Notes under the pieces: generated by a model | Databases searched by the model: none | Told to the model about the DNA's origin: nothing | What the model saw: only the letters and a program-made list of their open reading frames with translations | Shown: positions 11,023 to 42,491 of the stretch, piece after piece | Numbering within the stretch: the stretch's first letter is position 1 | Layout of the letters: the number at the start of each line of letters is the position of its first letter | Program-made: the position numbers and the translations under genes | Origin: Rhizomicrobium sp. | GTDB taxonomy: Bacteria; Pseudomonadota; Alphaproteobacteria; Micropepsales; Micropepsaceae | Direction of reading: 5' to 3' | Assembly: GCA_031291635.1 (NCBI GenBank) | Contig: JARLIR010000115.1 | Coordinates: 1 to 48,309 of the forward strand | DNA: 48,309 nucleotides

Positions 11023-11030
11023 GTCCGGAC

Positions 11031-11059
11031 AAAAGAAAACGGGCGCCGTAGCGCCCGTT
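11031..11059 (-). terminator. Terminator of the GH130 gene
   Basis: Perfect 9-bp stem AACGGGCGC / GCGCCCGTT with a 4-nt loop. On the minus strand it is followed by TTTTCTTTT. It serves the mannanase-phosphorylase operon that ends at 11083. Confidence 0.85.
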
Positions 11060-11082
11060 CCGTCCCAATCTGTCTGTCGCTT

Positions 11083-12264: not shown

Positions 12265-12274
12265 GGGGCGCTCT

Positions 12275-13387: not shown

Positions 13388-13444
13388 GTTCTCTCCCTCG
13401 CGATATTTGTTCTGTTGCGAAATTGTAGCTATAGGATGACGTCA

Positions 13445-13458
13445 TGACAACGCTTACG
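13445..13458 (+). promoter_or_regulatory. LacI-type operator in the mannanase/reductase promoter
   Basis: TGACAACGCTTACG has the same CGCTTAC half as the operators before the receptor gene. It sits in the 87-bp divergent spacer. One half is degenerate, so binding is less certain. Confidence 0.45.
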
Positions 13459-13474
13459 CAGTGAGGGAACGGTC

Positions 13475-14344
13475 ATGTTGGGATTGTCGGAACGCGCCAA
13501 GAAGCGGCTCGCCTATGGATTTTGGCGTTACACTGAGGACCGCGTAGACGAAGCCATCGCGATGCTGTCGCTCGCTCGTGAAAGTGGCATCGACCATTTC
13601 GACACTGCCGACGTTTATGGCGGATCCAGCGGTTTTGGTGGCGCGGAACGGCTGTTGGGAGCCGTGCGCAAGAAAGCACCGAAACTGTTTGATGGCGTGA
13701 CCCTAGCGACCAAGGCGGGTTGCGACATGGCAAGCCCTTACCAATCCTCGCCCGCTTATTTGAAAGCCGCTGCCGATGCCAGTTTGTCGCGCCTCGGTGT
13801 CGCACGCATCGACCTTTTCTACATTCACCGGCCGGATCTTCTGACCCATCCCGCGGATGCGGCAGGCGCCCTCGACGATCTCATCGCAGCGGGCAAGATC
13901 GCCGCTGTCGGTGTTTCCAACTATTCCGTGTCCCAAGTCGAGGCTCTGGCCCGCTTCATGAAGGCGCCGATCCGCGCAAATCAGATCGAATTTTCGGCAG
14001 GGCATGTCGCGCCGCTTTTCGATGGCACCCTCGATCAAGCCATGAAGCGTCATATCGCCATTCCGGCCTGGTCGCCGATGGCGGGCGGACGCTTGGGCGC
14101 CCACGGCCCGGAAGCCTTTGCGGCCGTACGCACTGTCCTGGCACGGCTCGCTGAGCAGCATGACGTGACGCCCACTGCCATCGCGATTGCGTTTTTGCTG
14201 ATGCATCCGGCAGCGGTGACGCCGATCCTCGGTAGCACCCGCCCGGAGCGGTTGCGCGAGGCCTTGGCGGGCTTGAAGGTGAGCCTCGGGCGTCGCGATT
14301 GGTACGATATTGTAGAAGCCGCGCGCGGCGAGCGGATGCCCTAA
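13475..14344 (+). CDS. Aldo/keto reductase
   Basis: A 289-residue NAD(P)H-dependent TIM-barrel oxidoreductase. The catalytic Asp and Tyr lie in HFDTADVYG (about 44-52), the Lys in ATKAG (about 79-83) and the His in FYIHRPD (about 111-117). GVSNYSVSQVEAL and IPAWSPMAGGRLG are cofactor and barrel motifs resembling YdhF-type reductases. A GAGGGAAC ribosome site precedes the start. It shares a control region with the mannanase operon, so it may reduce a sugar or sugar-derived aldehyde from mannan use, but the substrate is not known. Confidence 0.85.
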   Translation: MLGLSERAKKRLAYGFWRYTEDRVDEAIAMLSLARESGIDHFDTADVYGGSSGFGGAERLLGAVRKKAPKLFDGVTLATKAGCDMASPYQSSPAYLKAAADASLSRLGVARIDLFYIHRPDLLTHPADAAGALDDLIAAGKIAAVGVSNYSVSQVEALARFMKAPIRANQIEFSAGHVAPLFDGTLDQAMKRHIAIPAWSPMAGGRLGAHGPEAFAAVRTVLARLAEQHDVTPTAIAIAFLLMHPAAVTPILGSTRPERLREALAGLKVSLGRRDWYDIVEAARGERMP

Positions 14345-14362
14345 CCGCGCCCGGCCCGCCGC

Positions 14363-15511
14363 TTACATCGCGGCTTTATAAAGTTCCAGCACCTCTGCCG
14401 CCGTGGCGGACACCGGATTGCCACCGGCGCAGGGGTCGGCCAAGGCTTTGGGCACGAAACCGGCAAGGTCGGCTTCCGTTACACCGAGTTCGGCGAAGCC
14501 TTTGGGAATGCCGACTTGTGCGGACAGCGCCCGGATCGCGTCGATTGCCGCCAGCGACGCCTGCTCTTCGGTGAGGGTGCTGATGTCGACGCCCATGGCG
14601 TCCGCAATGCGGGCAAAGCGCGCCACCGCATGGGGCCGATTGAAGGCTTCGACCACGGGTAACAGAATGGCGTTGCAGACTCCATGCGGCAGATCTTTCA
14701 CGGCGCCAGGCTGGTGGGCGAGGGCATGCACGAGGCCAAGCCCCGCACTGTTGAAGGCCATACCGGCAAGAAATTCGCCATAGGCCATCTGTTCCCGCGC
14801 CGCGAGGTCTTTGCCGTTTTCCACGGCGCGCGGCAGGTGTTTGGTGATGACGCGGATGGCTTCCAGCGCCGAATGATCCGTCAGCGGATGCGCGCCTTTG
14901 GAAACATAGGCTTCGATTGCATGGGTCAGCGCGTCCATGCCCGTGGCGGCCGTGGTGCCGCGCGGCACGCTCACCATCATCTCGGGATCGTTCACCGAAA
15001 TATCGGGAATGATATGCGTATCGATGATGACCATCTTCACTTGACGGGCGGTATCGGTAATGACGGCGTTAGACGTAACCTCGGCTGCGGTTCCTGCCGT
15101 GGTGTTGATGGCAATCAGAAAGGCGCCGTCTTTGCCCACTTTGCCGATGCCTTCATAGAGGCTGATCGGGCCGGGATTGGCGGTCAGGATGCGCACCGCT
15201 TTGGCGGTATCGATGGGGCTGCCCCCGCCAACGGCGACAATGCTGTCGCAGCGATTTTCTTGGAACAGAGCAAAGGCCGCCTCGACCACGGTCACTGTCG
15301 GATTGGGAACCACGCCATCGAATACGACGGGCGCCACATCCGCTGCCTTCAAGCCGCTCAGCAGGGGGGCCACAACACCGGCTTTCACCAGCATCGCATC
15401 GGTCACAACCAGCGGCCTGCTCAACCCATGCGTGGTGAGTTCCGCCGGTATTTCGCTCAGGCAACCAGCGCCGCTGATATTGATTTTGGGAAAGCACAGA
15501 CGAAAGCTCAT
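14363..15511 (-). CDS. Iron-containing alcohol dehydrogenase
   Basis: A 382-residue group III alcohol dehydrogenase. The nucleotide-binding signature GGGSPIDTAKA is near residue 95, and the iron ligands are in the segments TGMDALTHAIEAYVS, LVHALAHQPGA and LPHGVCNA. The in-frame opening extends 42 codons upstream, but that sequence is basic and unlike the family, so the ATG at 15511 (MSFRLCFPKINISGAG) is preferred although its ribosome site is weak. It faces the aldo/keto reductase tail to tail with 18 bp between. The substrate is unknown; lactaldehyde, butanol and ethanol dehydrogenases share this fold. Confidence 0.88.
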   Translation of the reverse strand: MSFRLCFPKINISGAGCLSEIPAELTTHGLSRPLVVTDAMLVKAGVVAPLLSGLKAADVAPVVFDGVVPNPTVTVVEAAFALFQENRCDSIVAVGGGSPIDTAKAVRILTANPGPISLYEGIGKVGKDGAFLIAINTTAGTAAEVTSNAVITDTARQVKMVIIDTHIIPDISVNDPEMMVSVPRGTTAATGMDALTHAIEAYVSKGAHPLTDHSALEAIRVITKHLPRAVENGKDLAAREQMAYGEFLAGMAFNSAGLGLVHALAHQPGAVKDLPHGVCNAILLPVVEAFNRPHAVARFARIADAMGVDISTLTEEQASLAAIDAIRALSAQVGIPKGFAELGVTEADLAGFVPKALADPCAGGNPVSATAAEVLELYKAAM

Positions 15512-15662
15512 AACCGGCACCGGATGTAGATGGCGGCCAAGCCTACTCCGGCAGCGGTAACCGGGCGACAATCGCAATGCGTGACATCTTCGCCCGCGCG
15601 GACGTACACTGAAGTCCGACCGGCACAACACAACCACCGGTCATTGTTGTGCGTTGACGCCC

Positions 15663-17183
15663 ATGGCTCACGAAATCGAAATCAAGCTTAGGGCCTCTAG
15701 TAAGGCGCTGAAAGCCGTTGCGAAGCTCGATTGGCTGATGGCCTTGGCGCAAGCTCCGCCCAAACGGAAAAAGCTGCGCTCAGTCTATTTCGATACATCT
15801 GCGCGGGCGTTGCAGCAACGCGGGCTCACCTTGCGCGTGCGTCATAGCGGGCGAAACCGTCTGCAGACGGTCAAGGCGAACAGCGCCGGAGTTTTTGCGC
15901 GCCATGAATGGGAATGCGACATCAAGGGCGACAAGCCCGATCTCACTGCTCTGCCGCAAGCGGCGCGCAAACGGCTCGGCAAATTGGAGCGCCTCCGTCC
16001 GGTCTTCGAAACCGCAGTGACGCGCACCACCATTACTCTTCTCTACGACGGCACCGCGATCGAATTGGCGCTTGATGCCGGTGTTATCAAAGCCCGGCGG
16101 CGCAGCGAGCCCATCAGTGAGATTGAGCTCGAATGGAAAGACGGTGATCCAGCTGGTCTTGCCGCCTTGGCCGAACGCTTAGCGGCCGACATCGCCGTGT
16201 CCTTCGAATGTCGCGCCAAATCCGAGCGCGGCTATGGCTTGGCAAGCGGCACCAGGAGCCGCGCTGTCCATGCACAGGATATCGAACTGAACGGCGACAT
16301 GACGGTTGCCGAAGCCTACCGCGCCATCGCGATGGAGTGTTTGCGGCATTTGTCGAGTAACGAGTCTGCGGTGCTTGCGGGGGATGCGGAAGGCGTCCAC
16401 CAAATGCGTGTGGGGCTCCGTCGCTTGCGGGCAGCGATGTCCTTGATGCGTGAGATGTTGAGCGATAGCCAAAGTCAGGCGATCCGCACCGAGCTCAAAT
16501 GGTTGACAGAACAACTCGGTCCCGCGCGGGATATCGACGTCTTCGTGCGCGACAGCCTTGCCCCGCTCGCCAAGGCCGCTCGTGGGATGACGGTTCTCAA
16601 AAAGGATATGGAACGGCAGCGGGACGAGGCTTTTACCCGTGCCCGCATGGCCGTGGCAGACGAGCGCTATCGCCGTCTCGTCTTGGCGGTCGCCTTGTGG
16701 CTCGCCAATGGAAACTGGGGCAGTAGTGAGGATCTGCTGCAGAGTGCCCATCGCGAACGCCCCATCCGCTCCTTTGCCAACGAAACGCTTACGACGCGGA
16801 CCCGCAAGGTTCTTAAGAAGACCCGCAAGCTGCAGTCTTTGCAGCCGCGGGCACGGCACAGGTTACGCATTGCTGCCAAGAAGCTGCGCTATGCAGCGGA
16901 ATTCTTTGCCATGCTCTATGACGGCAAAAAGGCCAAGGCGCGGCAGCAGAAAATGAGCGCCAATTTGGAAGCCCTGCAAGAGGCCCTAGGCCGTCTCAAC
17001 GATTTTGCGGTCCACCAGAAGATGGCCGGAAAAGTCATCGCGGCACCGACAGAGGGCAGTCCGAAAGAAGCTTATGGCTTTGGCATCGTCACCGGCCATG
17101 AGCTCAGCGAAAGTGAAGGTTTTCTCGCGGCTGCGCGTAAAGCCGGTGCGCGGCTGAAAGCGAAAAAGCCGTTCTGGACGTGA
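15663..17183 (+). CDS. CYTH and CHAD domain protein (triphosphatase/polyphosphate-binding)
   Basis: A 506-residue two-domain protein. Residues 1-200 form a CYTH domain starting with the EIEIKL signature; this fold hydrolyses inorganic triphosphate or related tunnel-bound substrates with divalent metal. Residues about 205-500 form a CHAD helical domain rich in His, Arg and Lys, with VHQMRVGLRRLRAAM, RHRLRIAAKKLRYAAEFF and related motifs, which binds polyphosphate. No signal peptide. A TTG codon three residues upstream (15654) could also start it; neither start has a clear ribosome site. A role in polyphosphate metabolism is inferred from domain content; a Ppx/GppA gene lies 20 kb away. Confidence 0.88.
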   Translation: MAHEIEIKLRASSKALKAVAKLDWLMALAQAPPKRKKLRSVYFDTSARALQQRGLTLRVRHSGRNRLQTVKANSAGVFARHEWECDIKGDKPDLTALPQAARKRLGKLERLRPVFETAVTRTTITLLYDGTAIELALDAGVIKARRRSEPISEIELEWKDGDPAGLAALAERLAADIAVSFECRAKSERGYGLASGTRSRAVHAQDIELNGDMTVAEAYRAIAMECLRHLSSNESAVLAGDAEGVHQMRVGLRRLRAAMSLMREMLSDSQSQAIRTELKWLTEQLGPARDIDVFVRDSLAPLAKAARGMTVLKKDMERQRDEAFTRARMAVADERYRRLVLAVALWLANGNWGSSEDLLQSAHRERPIRSFANETLTTRTRKVLKKTRKLQSLQPRARHRLRIAAKKLRYAAEFFAMLYDGKKAKARQQKMSANLEALQEALGRLNDFAVHQKMAGKVIAAPTEGSPKEAYGFGIVTGHELSESEGFLAAARKAGARLKAKKPFWT

Positions 17184-17195
17184 CCGTTTCGCGCC

Positions 17196-18074
17196 TCAGT
17201 GCACTTGTGTCAGTGTACAGATGATCCGCGCCCGCGCTCCGGCGGCTGCACAGTCCATCGTTTCAAAGGGCGCTTTTGCCCCTTCCAGGGGGATAAAGGC
17301 GACCAGCCCGTTCGGCTGTTCCTTGCAGCGGAATTCGACGATGTGACGCTGTTTGACGGTTTCGCGACCGATCAGATGCGAGGCCTCCACAGTACAAGGC
17401 ACATTGTGCTGTACGATAGCGTCTTTGAAGTTCTGTTCCGTAATCATGGGTGTTCCGGTGCTCGACATCGTGCAGCGAATGCCATGCTTAAAGGCATCAA
17501 CGCAGCTCTGTGCCGAGATCGGCTTTGCCGAGCCGGGCAGGGGGCTTGCAATCACAACGCCGGTGCCGCCCGTACAGGCGACTTCGGTGAGTTCGCTATG
17601 GGTCGAGACCTCTTCACCCATAGTGCGATACTTGGACACGACACAGCTGTTGCCGAGGCCTTTCAAGATATTTCCCGCCATGGCTTTCAGATCGGCATTG
17701 GCGGCAAGGACACAGCTAGGGCCGGGTGGATTGCCAGCGGCGACATCGGCTGCGCGCGTAGCATCGGCGGCGATGCAGGAAAAGCCGAGCACGGGTTCCG
17801 GTGTCTGCTCCACCAGAAAATAGCCGATGCCGCTTTTGCACGCCGTCTCGAAGGTGCGCACATGCACGTCTTTGCCGTTCACCACGGCTTTGCCATCATT
17901 AAACAGCGCCGCGTCGCTCACTTCGCAGGACAAATTGATCGACTGCACCAGCGCGGTGGCACTGGCCATCACCTCTTCCTTGCTGGGGGGCGCTTTGGCT
18001 TTGCCATAGGAGGGAACAGCAGTCTGCGCGACTGCCAAAAGCACTAGTACGAAAATCCTCGCCACCAAACGCAT
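17196..18074 (-). CDS. Periplasmic protein with three Cys-rich internal repeats, unknown function
   Basis: A 292-residue exported protein that was not recognised. A signal peptide covers about residues 1-24 (VARIFVLVLLAVAQTAVPSYG). The mature part is three repeats of about 80-90 residues, each with an N-terminal Cys, a Cys after a T-x-V/E-F stretch, a central G-x-x-x-I/L-P or similar turn, and a closing Cys pair (for example NSCVVSKY, EVACTGG, SCVDAFKHGIRC). About four Cys per repeat suggests two disulphides each. The start at 18074 was preferred over 18122 because it begins the signal peptide. It is divergent from the GH105 gene and tail to tail with the CYTH-CHAD gene. Confidence 0.7.
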   Translation of the reverse strand: MRLVARIFVLVLLAVAQTAVPSYGKAKAPPSKEEVMASATALVQSINLSCEVSDAALFNDGKAVVNGKDVHVRTFETACKSGIGYFLVEQTPEPVLGFSCIAADATRAADVAAGNPPGPSCVLAANADLKAMAGNILKGLGNSCVVSKYRTMGEEVSTHSELTEVACTGGTGVVIASPLPGSAKPISAQSCVDAFKHGIRCTMSSTGTPMITEQNFKDAIVQHNVPCTVEASHLIGRETVKQRHIVEFRCKEQPNGLVAFIPLEGAKAPFETMDCAAAGARARIICTLTQVH

Positions 18075-18257
18075 AACGCACTGTCCCCAATTTTCTGCGC
18101 ACGCCCAACAGGTTGCGGGCATGAGCCAAAGCCCAGGCTTTGCAAGGCTCGCGGCCCCGCCAGCCTGTCACAGTGTCGTGTGATTGCGGCGCTTTCCCGG
18201 CGGTCGCCGCTCTTTGTGTTACTCTGTCATCCGGCAGGAATCGTGGAGCAACTAATC

Positions 18258-19385
18258 ATGCGGCGGGGCGTATTGCTCTTATCTCTCAGCATGCTTTTGG
18301 GGGTGGTATCGGCCGCGTCAGCCGAAACGCCCGCTGCCATACTCGCCCTGAGCGAAAAGGTTGCCGACTGGCAGCTGAGCCATATCGGTGAGCCGGTGCC
18401 GCATCAGCGCCCGGAGACCTTCGCCCCCCGCGATTGGGTCATGGGCGCTTTCTACGTCGGTTTGACGGCGCTGGCCGATCAGAAGCCGCGCTATACCGCC
18501 GCCATTCTTCACGCGGGCGAGGCGCAAGGCTGGCAGCTGGGTGACCAGCTCTACCATGCCGACCATCACGTCATCGGCCAGACTTGGATTTGGTCTTATG
18601 AGAAGTCGCATGATGCCAAAATGATCGCGCCTATGCGGGCGCGCTTCGATGCAGTATTGGCGAGTCCGCCGACCAATTCGCTGCAATTTGCCGATCCTGT
18701 CAGCGGTAAGGAATTGCCTTGCCAAAGTCGCTGGTGCTGGTGTGATGCCTTATTCATGGCGCCACCCGCTTGGTTTGCGCTTTCCCGCGTCACGGGTGAT
18801 GGCCGTTACGCCGCCTATGCCGACAGCGAATACGCTCTCACCACCAAAACGCTCTTCAGCGAAGAGGATGGGCTCTTTTACCGGGACACCCGTTTCCTCG
18901 GTAAACTTGGCCTCCACGGCGAACGTATCTTCTGGGCCCGCGGCAATGGCTGGGTCTATGGCGGGCTGGCGCGCATTCTCGACATTCTGCCCGAGAAAGC
19001 GCCGGAGCGGCAGCGCTATGTTGATCTCTTCCGCAAGATGTCAGCGGCGCTGGTGAAGCTGCAAAAGAAAGACGGCTACTGGTCCGGCTCGCTGCTCGAT
19101 CCCACCCCGGACACGGTGGCAGAAACTTCCGGCACGGGCTTTTTCACCTATGGCCTTGCTTACGGTGTGAAGCATGGGCTTTTGCCGGAGCCGCGGTATC
19201 GCCAAGCGGCCGAGCGCGGCTGGGCAGCGCTGGCCAAAGCCGTGGATAGTGATGGCCGCCTCGGCTATGTGCAGCCCATCGGCTTTGCCCCCGATCAGGT
19301 CACCAAGGACGATACCCAGCCCTTCGGTGTCGGCGCCTTTCTGCTCGCAGGCAGCGCCATGGCGGCGCTGGAGCAGAAAAACTAA
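18258..19385 (+). CDS. Secreted GH105/GH88-type unsaturated uronyl hydrolase
   Basis: A 375-residue protein with signal peptide (RRGVLLLSLSMLLGVVSAASA). The (alpha/alpha)6-barrel shows PRDWVMGAFYVGL near residue 58 and WCWCDALFMAPPAW near residue 163, which carry the two Asp residues used for hydration of unsaturated rhamnogalacturonyl or glucuronyl ends. ARGNGWVYGGLARIL and ETSGTGFFTYGLAYGV are further family motifs. It would remove the unsaturated sugar left by a polysaccharide lyase, pointing to pectin-type or other uronate-containing glycans. The ATG at 18258 follows GGAG by 9 bp and begins the signal peptide. No lyase gene is in the window. Confidence 0.88.
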   Translation: MRRGVLLLSLSMLLGVVSAASAETPAAILALSEKVADWQLSHIGEPVPHQRPETFAPRDWVMGAFYVGLTALADQKPRYTAAILHAGEAQGWQLGDQLYHADHHVIGQTWIWSYEKSHDAKMIAPMRARFDAVLASPPTNSLQFADPVSGKELPCQSRWCWCDALFMAPPAWFALSRVTGDGRYAAYADSEYALTTKTLFSEEDGLFYRDTRFLGKLGLHGERIFWARGNGWVYGGLARILDILPEKAPERQRYVDLFRKMSAALVKLQKKDGYWSGSLLDPTPDTVAETSGTGFFTYGLAYGVKHGLLPEPRYRQAAERGWAALAKAVDSDGRLGYVQPIGFAPDQVTKDDTQPFGVGAFLLAGSAMAALEQKN

Positions 19386-26159: not shown

Positions 26160-26233
26160 TGGGGGATCGTCTAACGGTAGGACTGCAGACTCTGACTCTG
26201 CCTATCAAGGTTCGAATCCTTGTCCCCCAGCCA
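26160..26233 (+). tRNA. tRNA-Gln (anticodon CUG)
   Basis: A complete cloverleaf: acceptor TGGGGGA with TCCCCCA, anticodon stem GCAGA / TCTGC around loop CTCTGAC (anticodon CTG), T-arm CAAGG-TTCGAAT-CCTTG, discriminator G and an encoded CCA at 26231-26233. It reads CAG codons. The 3' end is the probable attachment point of the accessory DNA beginning here: the recombinase gene on the opposite strand ends inside it. Confidence 0.93.
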
Positions 26234-27841
26234 ACCCCGGTCAGAAGTATGAACCGGGGAAAGCTCGAAATCCGCTGTCGTCAGGGCTTTGTCAGCCGTT
26301 TCGGCCAATGCAGAGTCCGGTCCAGTAATGACGATCTCGTCGGGACTGACCAAGACCTGTCCAATCAAAGCCCGGAGCAGCCTCTTTTGGGCCGCTGGTG
26401 GTGCATTCTCCAGCCGTTCACGCAGTCGGCGGGCGGCGATTTCCGCATCCAACTCCTTGATTGGACGTATTTCGTCCTTTAATTGATGCTCCTCTGTTTC
26501 AATCAAGCGTTGTATGTGGTCGCGCTGTTCTAGCGTGGTTTGGAGCTTTTCGCGAAACAGATCACTGTCACCAACCACTCCCTCACCCAAAGCTGTAAGC
26601 AGGTTATTTGCTGCTAGCTTCAGCCGACTAAGATTCTGTCTCAGTCGTTCGAGAGCTTTCGTACTGCTTTCCAGTCCGGTCTGCCTCCGCTCACAAACTC
26701 TATCAATGACTTCTTTGACACGCTCGGCCGTCATCAATGTGTTGACGACAGCGCTGATCGCCATGTTGTCAAGTTGAGCTTCCCGGACTGTGTTCCGGGC
26801 ATTCTTGCATGTGCCTTTTTGCAGGCGATGTGCGCAGGCATAGTACCGGTAAATCGTACCGTTATGGCCAGTTCCATTCCTAATCGTCATGTTGCCACCA
26901 CAGAGGCCACACTTCGCGATTCCGGTCAGCAGGACCTGACTAGCGGTGATACGGGGCGGAGAAACGTATGGGCGTCTCTCGTGCATCGCGACTTGGACTC
27001 GCTGGAACTCTTCGGGTGTGACGAGTTGGGGCACCGGAATCCCGACCCACTCATCACGGGGTCGCATCACCTTCGCCTTCGAGTCTGTCTGGTTGTACCA
27101 GTATGTCCCGGTGTAGCCATCGTTCTTGAGCACGCCTTCAATCTGGCTTGTATAGAACGGCTTGCCTTTATACGTTTGCCCACGATCATTTAAATAGGTG
27201 ACGATTTTCTTCACACCTAACGTTCCGCTGGTGCCGTCGCCCTCAAGATAGAGCTTGAAGATCAACTTCACGACAGGACCATTTTGCGGGTGAATTTTGA
27301 GCTTGCGCTTTTTGCGCGTTCCGATGGTCTCGATGAGGTCGATTTCGTAACCGAACGGTGCTTTCGGCGCGGTCCACCATCCGTCCTTCGCACTAGCAAT
27401 CATTGTCCGCTTCACATGCTTAGAAGTTTCCTTGCTGTTTAGTTCGTCAACGATGCCCATGATGCGCCGCGTCAAGTCGGCCATTGCACCTTCGCCTAAA
27501 TCCTGAGTCACAGAAATTACCTGCACCCCGTTCTTCACGAGCCTGCGCCGAATGTATTCCTGTGCTACGTCATCGCGGTAGAAGCGCGACATGCTGTGAA
27601 CGATAATCGCGTCAAAGGGCGGCGGTTTAGATAATGCTCGTGCGATGATGGACTGGAATAGCGGTCGGTGTTCATCGCTTGTGGCAGTACCTGCTTCGCT
27701 AACGGTCTCGCAAATCTCGTAGTTGCGCTCGTTACAGTACGCTGTGCATTGCGCGATCTGATCTGGAACCGACAGGTCCTTACCGCAGAACAATGCAAGA
27801 CAATCGCGAAAGACTCTGCCGCGCGCCGCTGGGCTTCGCAA
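26171..27841 (-). CDS. Large serine recombinase, apparently lacking its catalytic-serine segment
   Basis: A 556-residue integrase-type protein. It has a resolvase-like N-terminal region (SVPDQIAQCTAYC, FDAIIVHSMSRFYRD, GVQVISVTQDLGEG), a recombinase domain (APFGYEID, LEGDGTSGTLGVKKIVTYLN), a zinc ribbon (KCGLCGGNM and later Cys residues) and a C-terminal coiled coil. The frame opens at a TTG. The usual N-terminal strand with the YxRxS catalytic serine is not seen: the sequence runs CLALFCGKDLSVPDQ, and none of the three frames upstream contains the motif. A deletion there would make the enzyme inactive. The final 20 codons and the stop are antisense to tRNA-Gln. It is at the edge of accessory DNA and divergent from the small HTH-like gene. 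Confidence 0.8.
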   Translation of the reverse strand: MRSPAARGRVFRDCLALFCGKDLSVPDQIAQCTAYCNERNYEICETVSEAGTATSDEHRPLFQSIIARALSKPPPFDAIIVHSMSRFYRDDVAQEYIRRRLVKNGVQVISVTQDLGEGAMADLTRRIMGIVDELNSKETSKHVKRTMIASAKDGWWTAPKAPFGYEIDLIETIGTRKKRKLKIHPQNGPVVKLIFKLYLEGDGTSGTLGVKKIVTYLNDRGQTYKGKPFYTSQIEGVLKNDGYTGTYWYNQTDSKAKVMRPRDEWVGIPVPQLVTPEEFQRVQVAMHERRPYVSPPRITASQVLLTGIAKCGLCGGNMTIRNGTGHNGTIYRYYACAHRLQKGTCKNARNTVREAQLDNMAISAVVNTLMTAERVKEVIDRVCERRQTGLESSTKALERLRQNLSRLKLAANNLLTALGEGVVGDSDLFREKLQTTLEQRDHIQRLIETEEHQLKDEIRPIKELDAEIAARRLRERLENAPPAAQKRLLRALIGQVLVSPDEIVITGPDSALAETADKALTTADFELSPVHTSDRGWLGDKDSNLDRQSQSLQSYR

Positions 27842-31869: not shown

Positions 31870-32892
31870 TTATCCCACCGCCTCAATAAAGGCCCGCAGA
31901 TTTTCTGTTGTCACCCCGGGCGGCATGCCACCGGCGCAGGAGGGCAGCAGGCGGGGATGGTTGGTGGTGTCGGCCAGCATCTTTTTCACGGCGGCGCGGA
32001 CCTCGTCGGGCGTGCCGCTGGCCAGCACATCGCGCGGCGGGATGCTGCCCAGGATGGTCATGCAATTGTCGGTAACGCGGTGCAATTCGTTGACGCTCAT
32101 CTGGATGCCGGGGTTGTACAAATTGATCCCCGCATCGGGATAATACTTCACCGATTGGCGGCAATCGGCATCGTTGTGGAACAGCTTCACCGCCACCGGC
32201 ACATCGAACAGCTCTTTCAAATACGGGAAAGCGAATTCCTTAAAATCGTCTTCGCCGACGAAGCCGACGATGTCGTCCAGCACCAGCATGCCGTCGATGG
32301 AATCAATCGCGTCGCGTTGGCGCGCATGCCAGTCGATCAGGAAATCGGTGATGACGCGCAAGAAGCGATGCGTCTTCTCCGGATCGGTGGCCAGCATCAT
32401 CAGGAATTCAGTGGTCCCCATCAGGAAGCTGGCGATATTCAGCGGCCCGCGCGAAACGGAAAACTTGATCTGGTGCCCCATGGCTTCGATGCGACCACGA
32501 TTGCGCACCAGCCGGTTCAGCATGAAGGGCAAGAGCCCATCGGTGGTCACATCCGGTTTCAGGTTATTGTCGACATCGTCTTCGCTGAGGATGATCTTCT
32601 CGGCGAAGGGAAACTCGTTTTCGGGGAACTGACATTTGCTGCCAAAGGCCGAGGGCTCGGTGCACATGCCGAATTCCGACCAGAAGCCGGGCAGGAAAAT
32701 GCATTCGGGAAAGGTCTCGATCGCCTTCTTGTTGGCCTGGAACCAAACCTCGTCACTTTGGAAATATTCCAGAATGCTGACGCCATACCAGTTCGGCAGC
32801 CACGGGCAATCGATGATAAAGCCAATCGGCAAAGGTGTTTTTGCTTCGCCGCGGATCGCCGCCAGAAGTTCTGCCCAATGCTGTTCGGTCAT
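31870..32892 (-). CDS. UroD-family corrinoid methyltransferase
   Basis: A 340-residue TIM-barrel protein of the uroporphyrinogen decarboxylase superfamily. In this context it is a methyl-transfer enzyme of the MtaA/MtbA/CmuA type rather than a haem enzyme. Zinc ligands are probably His239 and Cys244 (LFHNDADC) with a late Cys in PSCAGGMPPG; family proteins use His-Cys-Cys to activate a thiol. LVLDDIVGFVGEDDFKEFAFPYL is typical of the barrel. It would pass a methyl group to or from the corrinoid protein encoded at 36090. It is divergent from the homocysteine methyltransferase-like operon. The methyl donor or acceptor is not known. Confidence 0.82.
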   Translation of the reverse strand: MTEQHWAELLAAIRGEAKTPLPIGFIIDCPWLPNWYGVSILEYFQSDEVWFQANKKAIETFPECIFLPGFWSEFGMCTEPSAFGSKCQFPENEFPFAEKIILSEDDVDNNLKPDVTTDGLLPFMLNRLVRNRGRIEAMGHQIKFSVSRGPLNIASFLMGTTEFLMMLATDPEKTHRFLRVITDFLIDWHARQRDAIDSIDGMLVLDDIVGFVGEDDFKEFAFPYLKELFDVPVAVKLFHNDADCRQSVKYYPDAGINLYNPGIQMSVNELHRVTDNCMTILGSIPPRDVLASGTPDEVRAAVKKMLADTTNHPRLLPSCAGGMPPGVTTENLRAFIEAVG

Positions 32893-33020
32893 GTTGGCCT
32901 CCCATAATGTTGGGCGTGACGATCATGCCGCGCCCGGCACAAAAACAGTCCGTGAATTGTCGCGGCAGCTGTGACAGCATCCGCGAACCGTTTCGACCCC
33001 TCACAATGATAGGCGCTCGC

Positions 33021-33902
33021 ATGCATCCGCTCCTTCAGACTTTATGCGGCCATGGCCCCGTGCTCACCGATGGTGCTTGGGGCACCGAGTTGCAGGCACG
33101 CGGCCTCGCGCCAGGTGAGACGCCGGATTTGTGGAATCTCAGCCACCCCGAAGCGGTGCAAACGGTGGCGCAGGCTTATGTCGAGGCCGGATCGCAGATC
33201 ATTCTGACCAACACCTTTGGCGCCAATCGATTTCGCTTGGCCGATTGTGATGCGGCCGAGCAAGTGGCGGTGATCAACCAGGCGGGCGTGGCCTTGTCGA
33301 AAGCGGCGGCGGGTAACGACGCGCTGGTCTTTGCCTCCATCGGCCCTAGCGGCAAGCTGATTATGAGCGGCGATGTCACCGAAGACGAACTCAGCGAAGC
33401 CTTTGTCGAGCAGGCTGAGGCTTTGGCGGCGGGTGGCGCCGATGGGCTGGTGATCGAGACCATGCAGGATATCGCGGAAGCCACGCTTGCCATCGCGGCG
33501 GCCAAAGCCACCGGCCTGCCGGTGGTCGCCAGCATGGTGTTCGATTCGGGAAAGCATTTCGATCGCACCATGATGGGCGCGACGCCGGAACAAGTGGCGG
33601 CCGGGCTGATCGCAGCAGGGGCTGATGTCATTGGCGCCAATTGCGGCCAAGGCATCGCTGGTTTCGTCGCCATTTGCGCCCGCTTGCAAGCGGCTGCCGA
33701 AGGCCGTCCGGTGTGGATCAAGGCCAATGCCGGTTTGCCTCAGATGCAGGATGGCAAAGCCGTTTATGCTATGGGCGCGGCGGAATTTGCCGACATCGTT
33801 CCAGCTGTGCTGGCGGCGGGGGCGACCTTTATCGGCGGCTGTTGCGGCACCTCGCCGGCTTTCATCCGCGCCACCCACGCCATGTTGCACGCCGGAAAAT
33901 GA
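33021..33902 (+). CDS. Homocysteine S-methyltransferase family protein
   Basis: A 293-residue zinc barrel protein like the N-terminal domain of MetH or betaine-homocysteine methyltransferase. Zinc ligands are Cys208 (GANCGQG) and Cys274-Cys275 (GGCCGTSP). TDGAWGTELQARGL and ILTNTFGANRFRL are family motifs. It would methylate homocysteine or another thiol, perhaps with the methyl-corrinoid protein as donor. The start at 33021 has an AGGCG site; an ATG at 33006 is an alternative. Its stop overlaps the next start as ATGA, so translation with the DUF1638 gene is coupled. Confidence 0.87.
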   Translation: MHPLLQTLCGHGPVLTDGAWGTELQARGLAPGETPDLWNLSHPEAVQTVAQAYVEAGSQIILTNTFGANRFRLADCDAAEQVAVINQAGVALSKAAAGNDALVFASIGPSGKLIMSGDVTEDELSEAFVEQAEALAAGGADGLVIETMQDIAEATLAIAAAKATGLPVVASMVFDSGKHFDRTMMGATPEQVAAGLIAAGADVIGANCGQGIAGFVAICARLQAAAEGRPVWIKANAGLPQMQDGKAVYAMGAAEFADIVPAVLAAGATFIGGCCGTSPAFIRATHAMLHAGK

Positions 33903-34636
33903 AACGGCTGACGGTCATCGCTTGTGCCAGTCTGCGGCGGGAGCTGGAGCTGCTGGCGGCAGAAGCTGGCCCAGCGATCCGTTTTCAGCACCTGGATATG
34001 GGATTGCATCAGCGCTCTGCCGAGGCGCTGCATGCCGCGCTGCAGGCTGCCATTGATGCCTCTGAGGATGACGCCGTGGCGCTGGCTTATGGCCTGTGCA
34101 ATCGCGGTGTTATCGGCTTGCGGGCGCGCAAAGTGCCGGTGGTGGTGCCGCGGGCGCATGATTGCATCGGCCTCTTGCTCGGCAGCAGCGCGCGTTATTT
34201 GCAGGAGCTTGAGGGCGCGCCAGGAACCTATTTCCAGAGTGCGGGCTGGCTTGATCAGGCGCCCACCGATAGCGCCATCCGGCAGCCGGATTTCACCTTT
34301 GGCCCCAACAGCAATGTGACGCGTGAACGCTTGGTCGAGCGTTATGGCGAAGACAATGCCGATTATTTGCTCGGCAAGTTCGAAGACTTCACCCAGCATT
34401 ATGAGCGCCTCGCTTACATCGCCACGCCCGCGCCGGAAGCCGCCTTTTGGCAGGCGGCAGCGCAATCCCTCGCCGACCGCCGTCAGTGGCGCTTTGAGCG
34501 GCTGGAGGGTGATTTGGGCTGGCTGCGGCGGCTGCTGAATGGGGATTGGAATAGCCGCGAGTTCGTCACCCTGGCGCCCGGCGAGCGTCTCGCTTTGACT
34601 TGTGACGAACGCTTGATCGCGGCGGAACCAGGATGA
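33899..34636 (+). CDS. DUF1638 family protein
   Basis: A 245-residue cytoplasmic protein of the DUF1638 family, which often accompanies corrinoid methyltransferase genes. It starts MKRLTVIACASLRRELELL, and ALAYGLCNRGVIGLRARKVPVV, RAHDCIGLLLGSSARY and YFQSAGWLDQAP are typical. Function is unknown; the conserved Cys and His residues could bind a metal or thiol. It sits between the homocysteine methyltransferase-like and RACo genes with ATGA overlaps at both ends, so the three are strictly coupled. Confidence 0.8.
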   Translation: MKRLTVIACASLRRELELLAAEAGPAIRFQHLDMGLHQRSAEALHAALQAAIDASEDDAVALAYGLCNRGVIGLRARKVPVVVPRAHDCIGLLLGSSARYLQELEGAPGTYFQSAGWLDQAPTDSAIRQPDFTFGPNSNVTRERLVERYGEDNADYLLGKFEDFTQHYERLAYIATPAPEAAFWQAAAQSLADRRQWRFERLEGDLGWLRRLLNGDWNSREFVTLAPGERLALTCDERLIAAEPG

Positions 34637-36093
34637 GCCGCGTCATGCTTTTGCCTGCGGGGCGGCAGCTGATGGTGGCGCGCGGTACCGCCCTGCGCGA
34701 TGTCTTGTTCGAACAAGGAGTCGAGTTTCCTTGCGGCGGCGGTGGGCGCTGCAAAGGTTGCCGCGTCAAGCTGCTGGCAGGTGCGCTGACGCCCGATGCG
34801 GCAGAGCGGGAGCGTTTCACCGCCGCAGAATTGACCGCTGGATGGCGCCTGGCGTGCCGTCACGGCGTGGACAGCGATCTGACGCTGGAATTGGCGCAAT
34901 GGGAAATGCCAGTTCTCAGCGATCATTCCGCCTTCAGCTTTGTGCCGCAAACGGGTCTCGGCATCGCCATCGATCTGGGCACCACCACCATCGCGGCGCA
35001 GCTGCTCGATCTGACGAGCGGTCACGTCTTGGCGGCGCGCACGGCGCTGAACGCCCAAGCCCGTCACGGCGACGACATCATGAGCCGCATCGCTTACGCC
35101 TTACAGGGCGGCGCAGCGGACCTCACGCAGCTAATCCGTGCCCAGCTGGGCCAAATGATTGCGGAGCTGGCTGAGACGGCGCCGTCGTGCCTGGTGATCG
35201 TCGGCAATACCGTGATGCATCATTTGTTTTGCGGCATCGATGTGACGCCGCTGGCGACGCATCCGTTTTTGCCGGAGCACAAGGGCCGCATCCGTTTCAC
35301 GCCCAGCGCCTTGGGTTGGAATTTACCGGAAACGACCAGCGTGGAATTCTTGCCCTGCATCGGTGGCATGGTCGGGGCCGATATTTTAGCGGGCATCATC
35401 GCCACGGATTTGCACAAGAGTGAAGGCCTCGTCGCCTTGATGGATCTGGGCACCAATGGCGAAGTGGTATTGGCGGGGCAGGGGCGTCTGCTTTGCACTT
35501 CGACCGCGGCAGGTCCTGCTTTCGAAGGCGCCCGTATCAGCATGGGCATGCGCGCCGCCAGCGGTGCCATCAGCGAAATCACGCTGCGTGATAACGCGCC
35601 GCACTGCCGCGTCATCGGTGGCGGGGCACCGCGCGGGCTGTGCGGCAGCGGCTTGGTCGATGCGGTCGCGGCCGGGCTGGATCTGGGTGTGATCGAAGCG
35701 AATGGGCGGATGCGCGCGGAGCGAATGATGCTGGCGGAGCCCGTCACTCTCTCGGCCCAGGACGTGCGCCAATTGCAGCTTGCCAAAGGGGCGATTGCGG
35801 CAGGCTTGAAAATTCTCACGGCCCATCTCGGCGCCACGCCGTCAGACATCGACCAGCTTTACCTCGCCGGGGCTTTCGGCAATTGCATCAACCGCGTCAG
35901 CGCCGAACGCATCGGCTTGGTGCGCGGCGCCATCACCTCGGCAGGCAACACCGCTCTGCTCGGCGCCAAGCGCGCTTTGTTCGAAGATACCGCATCCTGG
36001 GAGGCGCTGGCGGATCGCGTGGAGCACATCGCCTTAAGCGAAGAGCCGGACTTCTCAGACATCTTCGCCGAAGAAATGCGCTTTCCGGATTAA
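34633..36093 (+). CDS. Reductive activator of corrinoid protein (RACo type)
   Basis: A 486-residue protein with a 2Fe-2S ferredoxin domain (Cys34, Cys40, Cys43, Cys75 in FPCGGGGRCKGCRVK and LACRHGV), a linker and a C-terminal ASKHA-ATPase domain (DUF4445) with GIAIDLGTTTIAAQLLD, VALMDLGTNGEVVL and GGGAPRGLCGSGLVD. Family members use ATP and an electron to return inactive Co(II) corrinoid to Co(I). It should serve the corrinoid protein encoded by the adjacent convergent gene. Its stop overlaps that gene's stop by 3 bases (TTAA). Confidence 0.9.
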   Translation: MSRVMLLPAGRQLMVARGTALRDVLFEQGVEFPCGGGGRCKGCRVKLLAGALTPDAAERERFTAAELTAGWRLACRHGVDSDLTLELAQWEMPVLSDHSAFSFVPQTGLGIAIDLGTTTIAAQLLDLTSGHVLAARTALNAQARHGDDIMSRIAYALQGGAADLTQLIRAQLGQMIAELAETAPSCLVIVGNTVMHHLFCGIDVTPLATHPFLPEHKGRIRFTPSALGWNLPETTSVEFLPCIGGMVGADILAGIIATDLHKSEGLVALMDLGTNGEVVLAGQGRLLCTSTAAGPAFEGARISMGMRAASGAISEITLRDNAPHCRVIGGGAPRGLCGSGLVDAVAAGLDLGVIEANGRMRAERMMLAEPVTLSAQDVRQLQLAKGAIAAGLKILTAHLGATPSDIDQLYLAGAFGNCINRVSAERIGLVRGAITSAGNTALLGAKRALFEDTASWEALADRVEHIALSEEPDFSDIFAEEMRFPD

Positions 36094-36716
36094 AGCGCCC
36101 GTGCGGCGGCGACAGCGTTGGCGGCGCCGCTGCTGTAACCGTCGGCGCCGATCTCTTTGGCGTAAGCGGCACTGACCGGAGCGCCGCCGACCATCACCTT
36201 GACCTGATCGCGCACTCCGGCGGCGATCAAGGCATCGATGGTGGTTTTCATCGCCGGCATGGTGGTGGTGAGCAGCGCCGACAAGGCGACGATGCCGGCG
36301 TTCTTTTCCTTCACAGCCTTGACGAATTTCTGCGGATCGACATTGACGCCGAGATCGATCACCTCATAGCCGCCCCCTTCCAGCATGGCCGCCACCAGAT
36401 TCTTGCCGATGTCGTGCAGATCACCTTTGACCGTGCCGATGGCGACGCGCCCGACCGGCTCCACCCCGCCTGCCGCCAGCAAAGGCCGCAGCAGTTCCAA
36501 GCCGGACTTCATGGCGCGCGCGGCGAGCAACAGCTCGGGCACGAAATATTCGTTGCGCTCAAAGCGCAGGCCCACTTCCTCCATCGCTGGCATCATGTGC
36601 TCTTGGATGATGGCAAGCGGCGCAACGCCGTCCGCAAGCGCGGCTTCGGTCAGCGCCTTAGCGGCCTTCATGTCCCCAGTCAGGATCGCGTCGTACAGAG
36701 CTTTAAGGTCCGCCAT
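36090..36716 (-). CDS. Corrinoid (B12-binding) methyl-carrier protein
   Basis: A 208-residue protein of the MtaC/MtbC/MttC kind. Residues 1-80 are the helical cap (MADLKALYDAILTGDMKAAK, FVPELLLAARAMKSGLELL). Residues 85-208 are the Rossmann-like cobalamin domain, with the cobalt-ligating His101 in GDLHDIGKNLVAAML, and GVNVDPQKFV and MVGGAPVSAAYA loops. AAGGAA precedes the start at 36716; an upstream in-frame start is unlikely. It carries a methyl group between a substrate-specific methyltransferase, absent from the window, and the UroD-type or homocysteine-type methyltransferase here. Confidence 0.92.
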   Translation of the reverse strand: MADLKALYDAILTGDMKAAKALTEAALADGVAPLAIIQEHMMPAMEEVGLRFERNEYFVPELLLAARAMKSGLELLRPLLAAGGVEPVGRVAIGTVKGDLHDIGKNLVAAMLEGGGYEVIDLGVNVDPQKFVKAVKEKNAGIVALSALLTTTMPAMKTTIDALIAAGVRDQVKVMVGGAPVSAAYAKEIGADGYSSGAANAVAAARAL

Positions 36717-39297: not shown

Positions 39298-40463
<1,166 letters not shown>

Positions 40464-40464
<1 letters not shown>

Positions 40465-41300
40465 TGGAACGGATCGAGCAACACGCCTGTTTTGGCGGAA
40501 GCCAGGAAGTGTGGAAACACAGCTCCGCCGTACTGGGCTGCGAGATGCGCTTTGCGGTGTATCTGCCGCCGCAATCCCGTTTGGAAGCGCGCCCTGTGCT
40601 CTATTGGCTCGGGGGGCTGACCAGCAGCGAACAGAATTTCATCACCAAATCGGGCGCTCAGCGTTACGCCGCCGAGCATGGTTTGATTTTGGTGGCGGCC
40701 GACAGCTCGCCGCGCGGCGCTGGCGTGGCTGATGATCCGGCTTACGATCTGGGCCAAGGGGCGGGGTTTTATCTCAACGCCACAGAGGAGCCTTGGGCAG
40801 CGCATTACCGCATGTTCGATTATGTGACTGCGGAATTGCCAGCCTTGGTGGAAAGTCATTTTCCGGCCACTGACGCGCGCAGTATCGCGGGCCATTCCAT
40901 GGGCGGCCATGGCGCCCTCATCGCCACGCTGAAGAGGCCGGGTTTCTACACCAGCACCTCGGCCTTTGCCCCCATCGTGGCGCCGAGCCAAGTGCCGTGG
41001 GGGCAGAAGGCTTTCACGGCCTATCTGGGCACGGATGCGAAAAACTGGGCGGCCTGGGATGCGTGTGCGTTGCTCGCTTCAGCCGCCGACAAAGTGCGTC
41101 TCTTCGTCGATCAAGGTGAAGCCGACGAGTTTTTGGAGACACAGCTCAAGCCACATCTGTTGCACGAAGCGGCCAAAGCGGGCGGCCATGATCTGATGCT
41201 GCGCACCCATCCGCACTACGATCACAGTTACTATTTCATCACCAGCTTCATCGCTGAGCATATCGCCTATCACGCCGCCGCGCTGTCGAGCGAGCGTTAG
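40464..41300 (+). CDS. fghA: S-formylglutathione hydrolase
   Basis: A 278-residue serine hydrolase that turns S-formylglutathione into formate and glutathione. The nucleophile Ser is in IAGHSMGGHGALIATL, the His in HPHYDHSYYFITSF, and the oxyanion segment is LYWLGGLTSSEQNFITKSGAQ. PRGAGVADDPAYDLGQGAGFY is typical. It follows frmA with a TGATG overlap and completes glutathione-dependent formaldehyde oxidation. Confidence 0.95.
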
Positions 41301-41627
41301 AGGCGCCCATTCTGCTGCCTCTTTCCTCCACCGCGGTGCTCAGCACGCAGAGCTGCACAGCGATGACAGAGCGGGGGAGCCTTCGCGAGACGGAGGGGGG
41401 ATCGCTCCGCTAACACCGCTGTTTCTTCGCTCCCCCCTCCGGCTCACGGCTTCGCCGTGATCCACCTCCCCCGCTATTTGAACACCGTGCGGCATACCGG
41501 GTGGTGCACCGCAGGGGAGGAAAGAGGAGCGCAATAAGCATTTTCCCCGCATCTATTGCGCGGATTGGCCGCGCCTGGTTGCCTTCTGTTGGCCGCCGCG
41601 CGCCCCTAAACAGCGGCCCGGAAATAG
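41301..41627. other. Intergenic region with large nested palindrome
   Basis: A 327-bp gap between fghA and the formate-channel gene, filled mostly by the palindromic element at 41318-41527. The rest, 41528-41627, shows no gene; a promoter for the channel gene may lie there. Confidence 0.55.
41318..41527. repeat. Nested inverted-repeat element of about 210 bp
   Basis: Outer arms of 20 bp match at 18 positions (41318-41337 and 41508-41527, beginning CCTCTTTCCTCC). Inside are perfect 10-bp arms AGCGGGGGAG / CTCCCCCGCT (41370-41379 and 41466-41475), CGGAGGGGGG / CCCCCCTCCG (41391-41400 and 41432-41441), and a small hairpin TCACGGC-ttc-GCCGTGA at 41444-41460. The layout resembles a miniature transposable or extragenic palindromic element. 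It contains no gene. Confidence 0.6.
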
Positions 41628-42491
41628 ATGCAACCAGCGTGGACGATGATGGGCGTGGAACCGAGCAAGCAGTCTTTCGGCAGCGAGTGTTTTTCGCCGC
41701 AGGAAATTGAAGCCAATGTCGAAAAAATGGGCATCAAAAAGGCCCGTTCGCCCCTGATGGCGAGCCTGTTACAGGCGTTTCTCGCGGGTCTTTATATCGG
41801 TCTTGGCGGCCTCTTTTTCTGCATCGTGCTGGCTGACACCACGCTGGGCTTTGCGGCGCAGCGCCTCCTCGGCGGTCTGGTCTTTGCCCTTGGCCTTGGT
41901 CTTGTCGCGATTGCGGGCGGCGAGCTGTTCACCGGCAATTGCTTGATCGTCATGGCCTGGTTCCAAGGTCAGATCAGAGCTTGGGAAGTGCTCAAGAATT
42001 GGTCGATCATTTGGGTCGGCAACTTCATTGGCGCGCTCACCCTCGTCTTCCTGGTGTTCATGTCGCACCATTACGCCATGAACAATGGCGAGGTCGGCAA
42101 TGCCGTCGTCAAGCTGGCGGTCTCCAAGCTGTCGCCCGATTTCACCACCATCTTCTTCAAAGGCATTCTCTGTAACATCCTGGTCTGCCTCGGCATGTGG
42201 ATGAGCTATGCGGGCAAATCGGTGGCCGACAAGATGGCGGGCCTGGTGCTGCCCGTGGCCGCTTTCATCGCTGCCGGTTTCGAGCATTGCATCGCCAATA
42301 TGTATCTTCTGCCGCTGGCCTATGTGCTGGTGCAGCACGGTCATGTCCCCGCCGGGCTCGATGTCTCGGTGGTGACCATCCCCGCCATCATCCACAATCT
42401 GATCCCCGCCACGCTCGGCAACATCGTCGGCGGCGGCTTCTTCGTCGGCTTCATCTATTGGGCCATCTACCGTAAGGCCTATCAGCACTGA
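41628..42491 (+). CDS. Formate/nitrite transporter family channel
   Basis: A 287-residue membrane protein of the FocA/NirC family with six hydrophobic segments. GELFTGNCLIVMAW, WVGNFIGALTLVF, GILCNILVCLGMWMS and GFEHCIANMYLLPLA are the family pore and loop motifs. Its place after frmA-fghA, which make formate, suggests formate export or uptake. Nitrite, cyanate or bicarbonate remain possible from the family alone. Starts at 41646 or 41649 are alternatives; the ribosome site is weak for all. Confidence 0.88.
   Translation: MQPAWTMMGVEPSKQSFGSECFSPQEIEANVEKMGIKKARSPLMASLLQAFLAGLYIGLGGLFFCIVLADTTLGFAAQRLLGGLVFALGLGLVAIAGGELFTGNCLIVMAWFQGQIRAWEVLKNWSIIWVGNFIGALTLVFLVFMSHHYAMNNGEVGNAVVKLAVSKLSPDFTTIFFKGILCNILVCLGMWMSYAGKSVADKMAGLVLPVAAFIAAGFEHCIANMYLLPLAYVLVQHGHVPAGLDVSVVTIPAIIHNLIPATLGNIVGGGFFVGFIYWAIYRKAYQH

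Follow-up and report, generated by a model that had tools for sequence, protein, structure and literature searches.

A predicted B12-dependent cassette for moving the methyl group of 4-O-methylglucuronate to homocysteine in Rhizomicrobium

Five complete genes are grouped at positions 31870–36716 of a 48,309-nucleotide stretch of DNA from Rhizomicrobium sp., a plant-degrading soil bacterium (contig JARLIR010000115.1 of assembly GCA_031291635.1, positions 1 to 48,309 of the forward strand; hereafter the window). They encode a UroD-superfamily protein, a homocysteine S-methyltransferase, a DUF1638 protein, the corrinoid activase RACo and a corrinoid protein. Here we argue, from sequence comparison and gene context, that this cassette is probably a B12-dependent 4-O-methylglucuronate:corrinoid:homocysteine methyl transfer system, the likely substrate being new relative to the first-pass annotation of this DNA.

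The UroD-type gene (31870–32892, minus strand, 340 amino acids; PF01208, E=5e-32) codes for the predicted methyltransferase from substrate (4-O-methylglucuronate) to corrinoid protein. Divergent from it runs the gene of an MtgE/MetH-N-like homocysteine S-methyltransferase domain protein (33021–33902, plus strand, 293 amino acids; PF02574, 3.5e-62), the putative methyl acceptor enzyme, and going by gene order the region between the two (32893–33020) probably holds the promoters of both. The DUF1638 gene (33899–34636, plus strand, 245 amino acids; PF07796, 1.6e-34), for a predicted partner in corrinoid reactivation, and the gene of a RACo/RamA-like ATP-dependent corrinoid reductive activase (34633–36093, plus strand, 486 amino acids) follow, with ATGA overlaps at both junctions of these three plus-strand genes, as in a translationally coupled operon. 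The activase has an N-terminal [2Fe-2S] part and Fer2, RACo middle and RACo C-terminal domains in Pfam (PF00111, PF17651, PF14574). Convergent with it lies the gene of the corrinoid (B12-binding) protein (36090–36716, minus strand, 208 amino acids; PF02607 and PF02310), the predicted methyl carrier. The five-gene grouping already proposed in the first-pass annotation is borne out by Pfam domains for all five proteins and by a gene order that is kept in relatives. An Rfam search of the window and five relatives returned no cobalamin or SAM riboswitch at gathering score, its five matches being tRNAs, and seven aligned UroD/homocysteine enzyme intergenic regions revealed no clear shared operator.

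An order-level search, whose 96 genomes all belong to the window's family, found the UroD-type gene in seven, all in the window's genus, with a contig of Rhizomicrobium electricum DSM 21034 (L008 = L113) among the seven; relatives were picked by UroD, and cassettes without it would escape notice. Five of the six UroD-positive relatives carry all five genes in identical order and orientations, and in the sixth four genes are followed by about 1 kb of contig beyond RACo without a recognisable corrinoid gene. To judge from this conservation, all five function together as a single cassette, and their arrangement exceeds chance.

The UroD-type protein is likely the donor-side enzyme of corrinoid methyl transfer. 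Its AlphaFold 2 model (predicted local distance difference test score 92.7) has MtaA as its best PDB structure match (4ay7; Z 31.1, root mean square deviation 2.7, 324 aligned, 17% identity) and matches HemE with a Z of about 30.8, both over nearly the full length; CdmB is absent among the structure matches listed. At the sequence level the protein scores 66.5 of the 235.4 bits that the mtaA_cmuA model TIGR01463 requires, the 14 matches of a PDB sequence search are all uroporphyrinogen decarboxylases, and a plasmid collection yielded three records, at best 35% identical and lacking annotation for this protein. The assembly's one other UroD-superfamily match, at C247, scores 337.5 bits against PF01208 (two PF01208 matches in total) and is presumably HemE by score, so that the window's protein appears to be a separate paralogue. 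MtaA-type UroD proteins methylate thiols, and H-x-C...C is the zinc or metal site motif of these relatives. This motif is not retained in the window's family, in which H238-N-D240 and S317-C318 (S-C-x-G-G) are invariant across 44 aligned sequences; the replacement argues against thiol methylation and fits a donor-side enzyme. Second UroD proteins (UroD2) aligned from the loci L059, L070, L071 and L074 keep H-x-C (HxCG) and G-C (TGC). D205 and D206 of the window's protein are invariant too. The aromatic O-demethylases MtvB, OdmB and VdmB, and CdmB, also belong to the UroD superfamily (PMC13222342; papers are cited by PubMed Central number, each for the part consulted). With an MtaA/HemE fold that lacks H-x-C...C, and with no MttB or MtgB found, the earlier idea of UroD as the donor enzyme has become likely.

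What could the methyl donor be? 4-O-methylglucuronate, a sugar acid common in wood, is a main acidic side group in hardwood xylan, and the surroundings of UroD family genes point toward it. Among 84,980 species genomes we found 205 UroD relatives and kept the best 80 loci (54–79% identity), whose neighbouring genes were clustered by similarity alone, with no prior guess, and then counted in a targeted tblastn search; genes were called by a home-made open reading frame (ORF) score, and families were checked by HMM in representatives only. The most recurrent neighbours encode the corrinoid protein (23 loci), the homocysteine methyltransferase (21), a short-chain dehydrogenase/reductase (SDR; 12) and a major facilitator superfamily (MFS) transporter (10), and further ones an ABC ATPase (9, named by eye), UxuA (9) and GH115 (8). 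In the targeted count GH115 occurs at 8 loci, GH67 at 2, UxuA at 9, ManD at 1, GH43 at 4, GH10 at 3 and XylA at 2, and 17 of the 80 loci hold at least one strict xylan or hexuronate gene. SDR and MFS were omitted from the strict genes because these families are too broad; a GH2 (L025) and two GH9 genes (L064, L074) near UroD were not counted either, and a 'UROD2' row (38 loci), contaminated by the main UroD, was not used. The GH115, GH67, GH43, GH10 and UxuA representatives lie above their Pfam cut-offs, and neighbours at L065 and L050 pass NCBI cut-offs as D-mannonate oxidoreductase and as the D-mannonate dehydratase ManD, respectively. At the density of the 49 UroD-positive genomes behind the first 50 loci, the 1.09 Mb of locus DNA should contain about 0.3 GH115 genes, and 8 were observed, 7 of them in the other 30 loci. 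On the single-record Acidobacteriota chromosome of L046 the order is MFS transporter, UroD, UxuA and SDR, with GH67 in the same 19-kb stretch. A Pfam scan of 20 large ORFs near UroD gave mostly housekeeping functions or no assignment.

The association spans Acidobacteriota, Verrucomicrobiota, Lentisphaerota, Bacteroidota, Ignavibacteriota, Calditrichota and Fidelibacterota. Xylan and hexuronate neighbours are scattered on a quick UroD tree of 76 sequences, in which 29 of 73 inner branches are weak and L022, L023, L053, L055 and L072 are omitted for want of a usable row; at least 12 changes are needed, with gains and losses undistinguished. On these comparisons the UroD family is genomically linked to alpha-glucuronidases and hexuronate catabolism. 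The donors named in the first-pass annotation, glycine betaine, methoxylated aromatics and methylamines, find no support in gene context, which points to 4-O-methylglucuronate, with the aromatics keeping the small chance discussed below.

A second, MtaA-like UroD gene lies near the main one at L059 (12726–13772), L065 (10053–10829), L070 (4368–5438), L071 (10066–11085) and L074 (13809–14876), and two of these five loci, L059 and L065, also hold GH115. The UroD2 of L059 scores 134–139 bits against MtaA-type models, under their cut-offs; such paralogues may serve another methyl acceptor or act as a second demethylase. At L050 a UroD domain is fused to a thioredoxin-like domain (6360–7979, 539 amino acids) beside a corrinoid gene, and the fusion gene shares a 19-kb locus with GH67, ManD and an SDR.

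Co-occurrence of UroD and alpha-glucuronidases is also seen between whole genomes, with Fisher p values that ignore phylogeny and genome size. GH67 is found in 23 of the 96 genomes of the window's family, all of the window's genus: in 7/7 UroD-positive against 16/89 UroD-negative genomes (p=2.1e-5), or against 16/62 within the genus (p=2.3e-4), and still in 6/6 against 16/62 when the window's own genome is left out (p=6.8e-4). GH115, searched within this set in the genomes of L005–L009 and in the window's genome, is present in all five of the former. A second test took the order to which a Prolixibacteraceae genome belongs (247 genomes; thresholds E 1e-50 for UroD and 1e-30 for GH115 and for GH67); UroD occurs in 14 of its genomes, GH115 in 36 and GH67 in 30. 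Here 9 of the 14 UroD-positive genomes have GH115 or GH67, compared with 31 of the 233 UroD-negative ones (p=3.6e-5), and leaving out the centre genome gives 8 of 13 (p=1.4e-4). Of the 49 UroD-positive genomes behind the first 50 loci, 34 contain GH115; among 14 named control genomes GH115 matches 2 and GH67 matches 4.

The window's own assembly, 82% complete with 3.53 Mb in 267 contigs, holds four GH115 and two GH67 genes. One 62-kb contig (C182) combines GH52, three GH10 and two GH67 genes with ManD (727 bits, cut-off 550), an FGGY kinase, a xylose isomerase above its cut-off (XylA) and, both named by eye, a transporter and a TonB-dependent receptor; a fructuronate-reductase-like gene on it falls below its cut-off and is truncated where the examined DNA ends. 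This locus agrees with that of a Rhizomicrobium metagenome-assembled genome (MAG) from an anaerobic xylan enrichment, which has two GH10, GH52, two alpha-glucuronidases, xylose isomerase and xylulose kinase (PMC11596606). The contig with the xylan locus of the window's genome also bears a NuoF-like FMN/Fe-S gene (L093, 601–1794; Complex1_51K), possibly for a hydrogenase or formate dehydrogenase partner.

As to the methyl acceptor, the same assembly encodes only two pterin-binding proteins (PF00809), a full-length MetH and dihydropteroate synthase. MetH is complete, has its activation domain and adjoins MetF; no stand-alone methyltetrahydrofolate transferase and no MtvA-type or MtgD-type pterin protein was found in the 82%-complete assembly or in the cluster. 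With no usual methyl-corrinoid:tetrahydrofolate enzyme seen, homocysteine would be the sole acceptor encoded with the corrinoid protein, and the methyl-to-homocysteine transfer suggested in the first-pass annotation now appears likely. That annotation had also seen no MttB/MtgB/MtaB-like enzyme in the group. The MttB family (PF06253) has no match in the assembly, in agreement with this, while the same search matches Methanosarcina acetivorans among the 14 control genomes; with 82% completeness in 267 contigs, the absence is likely rather than proven.

Methionine synthases are the nearest PDB relatives of the homocysteine enzyme (best 2e-39), and its NCG and GGCC cysteine motifs, which presumably have a zinc role, are also present in the distant partner at L065. 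The corrinoid protein is by its NCBIfam and PDB matches nearest to the MtgC/MtbC/MetH group; its closest solved relative is the 'predicted cobalamin binding protein' 1y80 (3e-62), and the stretches GDLHDIG and SALLTTTM are common to the window and L064. In the DUF1638 protein Cys9, Cys67 and Cys89 are invariant across six sequences, and its AlphaFold 2 model (score 80) was uninformative in structure searches (best PDB Z 7.8, none at 8 or above; no Foldseek match at E ≤ 0.001). The first-pass annotation knew of no role for DUF1638 in such a setting, a view that is outdated. Methionine rescues DUF1638 mutants of Phaeobacter inhibens, whose fitness pattern resembles that of the split methionine synthase, and in this organism the fitness of DUF1638 and of a RamA-like protein correlates with the three-part methionine synthase (PMC5764234); a Ruegeria DUF1638 protein is more abundant on N-osmolytes (PMC12478193).

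Among the 80 loci, 25 have corrinoid or homocysteine enzyme genes near UroD. Eighteen of these carry a MetH-activation-like protein (PF02965, an assignment verified by Pfam in two representatives), five carry RACo, and two lie on short contigs with neither. The five RACo-bearing loci are those of Rhizomicrobium relatives, and the PF02965 version is found in other phyla, so that RACo with DUF1638 and the PF02965 protein apparently substitute for one another beside a common core. This interchange of two reactivation modules supports methionine formation, as well as a reactivation role for RACo plus DUF1638. On a short contig of a Verrucomicrobia MAG (L032) a RACo-like gene (3–1712), 34% identical to the window's, lies near UroD, and neither a corrinoid nor a homocysteine enzyme gene was found there.

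These data suggest the following route. GH67 and GH115 alpha-glucuronidases would free 4-O-methyl-D-glucuronate (MeGlcA) from glucuronoxylan, and MeGlcA would then be imported. The UroD-type protein would move the 4-O-methyl group onto the Co(I) corrinoid, leaving free glucuronate to enter the hexuronate route through fructuronate/mannonate reductase and mannonate dehydratase. The homocysteine S-methyltransferase would pass the methyl group from CH3-Co(III) to form methionine, and corrinoid oxidised from Co(I) to Co(II) would be re-reduced by RACo, using ATP and its [2Fe-2S] cluster, probably with the help of DUF1638. In this scheme we infer which substrate is used, which way each transfer runs, where in the cell the steps take place and what DUF1638 does. 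That UroD works on the donor side with homocysteine as the acceptor, whatever the substrate, is a claim we make with fair confidence. We lean slightly toward the broader proposal, an oxygen-independent, B12-dependent demethylation of MeGlcA by a new multi-phylum family of the UroD superfamily, with methyl transfer to homocysteine and two reactivation modules.

Several observations weigh against 4-O-methylglucuronate as the substrate. The window's cassette is not adjacent to xylan genes; in its clade the link exists at the genome level only, and the relatives are not independent. Just 7 of the 23 GH67-positive genomes in the family carry UroD, so the other 16 must manage without it. Conversely, 5 of the 14 UroD-positive genomes in the Prolixibacteraceae order lack both GH115 and GH67, and GH115 is missing from 15 of the 49 UroD-positive genomes behind the first 50 loci, although some of these absences may be gaps because most UroD-positive genomes are MAGs. 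In the examined DNA, 63 of the 80 loci are without any strict sugar gene. Little weight can be placed on the SDR and MFS neighbours: for the L046 SDR the best-scoring model is glucose 1-dehydrogenase, the L070 MFS protein falls below its best cut-off (D-galactonate transporter), and of 11 loci with an L065-like SDR only three reach at least 60% identity. Finally, xylan would yield more methyl groups than are likely needed for methionine, which would require an overflow route, conceivably by way of MetF and a MetH working backwards, or through export, and the presence of MetH makes the cassette dispensable for methionine as such.

Could the same machinery act on another plant methyl ether? The donor might be a methoxylated aromatic from lignin or another O-methyl sugar, and the xylan link might reflect only a lignocellulose diet; the UroD-type protein would then be related to MtvB, OdmB and VdmB. 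The UroD superfamily includes the aromatic O-demethylases MtvB, OdmB and VdmB (PMC13222342), the window's organism has a large set of genes for xylan and mannan degradation, and some UroD-positive genomes lack GH115 or GH67, all of which would fit. The recurrent neighbours that could be named are nonetheless xylan and hexuronate genes, UxuA and GH115 foremost, with no aromatic gene among the named families (a systematic search for aromatic genes was not made), and no MtvA-type tetrahydrofolate methyltransferase turned up in the assembly. We regard this alternative as unlikely, though well within reason.

Alternatively, UroD may not be on the donor side at all, the remaining genes forming a second, folate-free methionine synthase that is loaded by MetH or by an unknown methyltransferase while UroD methylates a thiol. 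The nearest PDB fold of UroD is that of MtaA, a thiol methylator, and the homocysteine enzyme, corrinoid protein and activase resemble a split MetH core (PMC5764234). We judge this improbable, given a complete MetH in the same genome and the loss of H-x-C...C in the window's family while four UroD2 paralogues keep H-x-C/G-C; a thiol-methylating UroD would also leave the link to alpha-glucuronidases unexplained.

More doubtful still is a glycine betaine demethylase and split methionine synthase of the MtgBCDE type, with MtgB (of the MttB family) and MtgD hidden in the missing 18% of the genome. The corrinoid protein and the MtgE-like, RamA-like and DUF1638 proteins are companions known from Ruegeria and Phaeobacter (PMC12478193, PMC5764234), and the incompleteness of the assembly leaves room for two more genes. 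Neither MttB nor an MtgD-type pterin protein was found, however (own assembly; MttB was not searched in the relatives), a UroD-type gene accompanies the other four in five of six relatives, which were themselves chosen by UroD, and the corrinoid protein stays under both MtgC cut-offs (201.9 of 370 bits for MtgC_2, its best NCBIfam match, and 182.3 of 310 for the other model). We find it hardly credible, despite the fold shared with HemE, that UroD should be another uroporphyrinogen decarboxylase or a gene with no tie to its neighbours, as it reaches 36.9 of the 302.95 bits required by the hemE model TIGR01464, a far better HemE candidate exists at C247, and the gene is conserved with the corrinoid genes and has corrinoid or homocysteine enzyme genes nearby at 25 of 80 loci.

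In the window, a zinc alcohol dehydrogenase gene and an esterase gene, then a formate/nitrite transporter gene, lie at 39325–42491; we interpret the first two as genes of glutathione-dependent formaldehyde dehydrogenase and of S-formylglutathione hydrolase. We considered these formaldehyde genes (39325–41300), to which the first-pass annotation had linked the cluster, as part of the system and rejected them: of all the relatives, L109 alone, the nearest one (UroD 95% identical), has the window's flanking genes beside its cassette, the transporter gene included, and the formaldehyde genes therefore do not belong to it. On that side the flanking DNA of the next four relatives extends for at least about 4.6 kb without formaldehyde genes, making one of five relatives with adequate flank; the sixth contig does not reach far enough. 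Three relatives (L111, 4997–5083; L112, 13567–13653; L113, 4806–4892) have a tRNA gene no more than about 120 bases from the corrinoid end, and the cassette may thus move into tRNA sites. In the window a tRNA gene (26160–26230) overlaps the end of a serine recombinase ORF (26171–27841), and about 3 kb up to 29300 corresponds to about 0.7 kb in L109, so that a mobile element probably lies at this tRNA. Elsewhere in the window, 4412–19385 holds genes for a LacI regulator, an N-acylglucosamine 2-epimerase family protein, a TonB receptor, GH130, GH26 and, farther along, GH88, probably a mannan locus.

If the proposal is right, the turnover of plant biomass would gain an enzyme for a step that has had none assigned, and wood decay would be linked to B12 and methionine, with wood xylan supplying methionine synthesis. 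A family annotated merely as 'uroporphyrinogen decarboxylase' would become a testable enzyme, and DUF1638 gains a defined partner set for biochemistry. Pectin carries methyl esters, and a response to xylan together with pectin is for that reason a hint only. Such a response is on record for Clostridium cellulovorans, in whose proteome cobalamin proteins rise on xylan and pectin, the cause being left open by the authors (PMC6547498); MeGlcA demethylation could be one reason for the rise on xylan. The release of 4-O-methylglucuronate by GH67 and GH115 enzymes is established (PMC3879575). In Geobacillus the released sugar goes into the uronate pathway, and the main text of that report uses no word that starts with 'demethyl' (PMC4194401). 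None of the open-licence papers listed in literature searches assigns, by title or abstract, a demethylase to 4-O-methylglucuronate, which is not proof of absence.

Among known systems, the corrinoid O-demethylases of acetogens (MtvBCA, OdmB, VdmB) and the chloromethane system CdmBCA likewise combine a UroD-superfamily donor enzyme with a separate corrinoid protein and an activase. The cassette differs from them in its predicted donor, a sugar acid ether, in having homocysteine rather than tetrahydrofolate as acceptor, and in the added DUF1638; the pterin-binding methyl-corrinoid:tetrahydrofolate methyltransferase of MtvBCA, Odm and Vdm is not in the cassette, and the 82% assembly has only MetH and dihydropteroate synthase of that fold family. 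The window's alphaproteobacterial genus, described as facultatively anaerobic (PMC11596606), also differs from the hosts of the acetogen enzymes. With MtgBCDE and the three-part methionine synthase of Ruegeria pomeroyi and Phaeobacter inhibens the cassette shares the corrinoid protein and the MtgE-like, RamA-like and DUF1638 proteins, and in Ruegeria pomeroyi one corrinoid protein serves both betaine demethylation and methionine synthesis (PMC12478193). Here, in contrast, neither MttB-family MtgB nor pterin-binding MtgD was found, a UroD-type enzyme is present, and MetH is encoded as well. Type 1 mlp clusters, which in obligate anaerobes group a corrinoid protein and an activase with several proteins of the UroD type (PMC10418091), resemble the cassette in pairing the UroD superfamily with a corrinoid protein and a Ram/RACE activase and in having no tetrahydrofolate methyltransferase. 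They differ in that their several Mlps are close to coenzyme M methyltransferases and are proposed to perform sulfur or selenium chemistry, whereas the cassette has one UroD without H-x-C plus a homocysteine enzyme, and the pairing of Mlp2 with Mlp3 is not seen. The methylcobamide:coenzyme M methyltransferases MtaA and MtbA share the fold of the window's UroD (4ay7, Z 31.1), which at 17% identity lies far under their family cut-offs and has lost the metal motif. The cassette therefore overlaps in parts with O-demethylases, MtgBCDE and mlp clusters and equals none of them.

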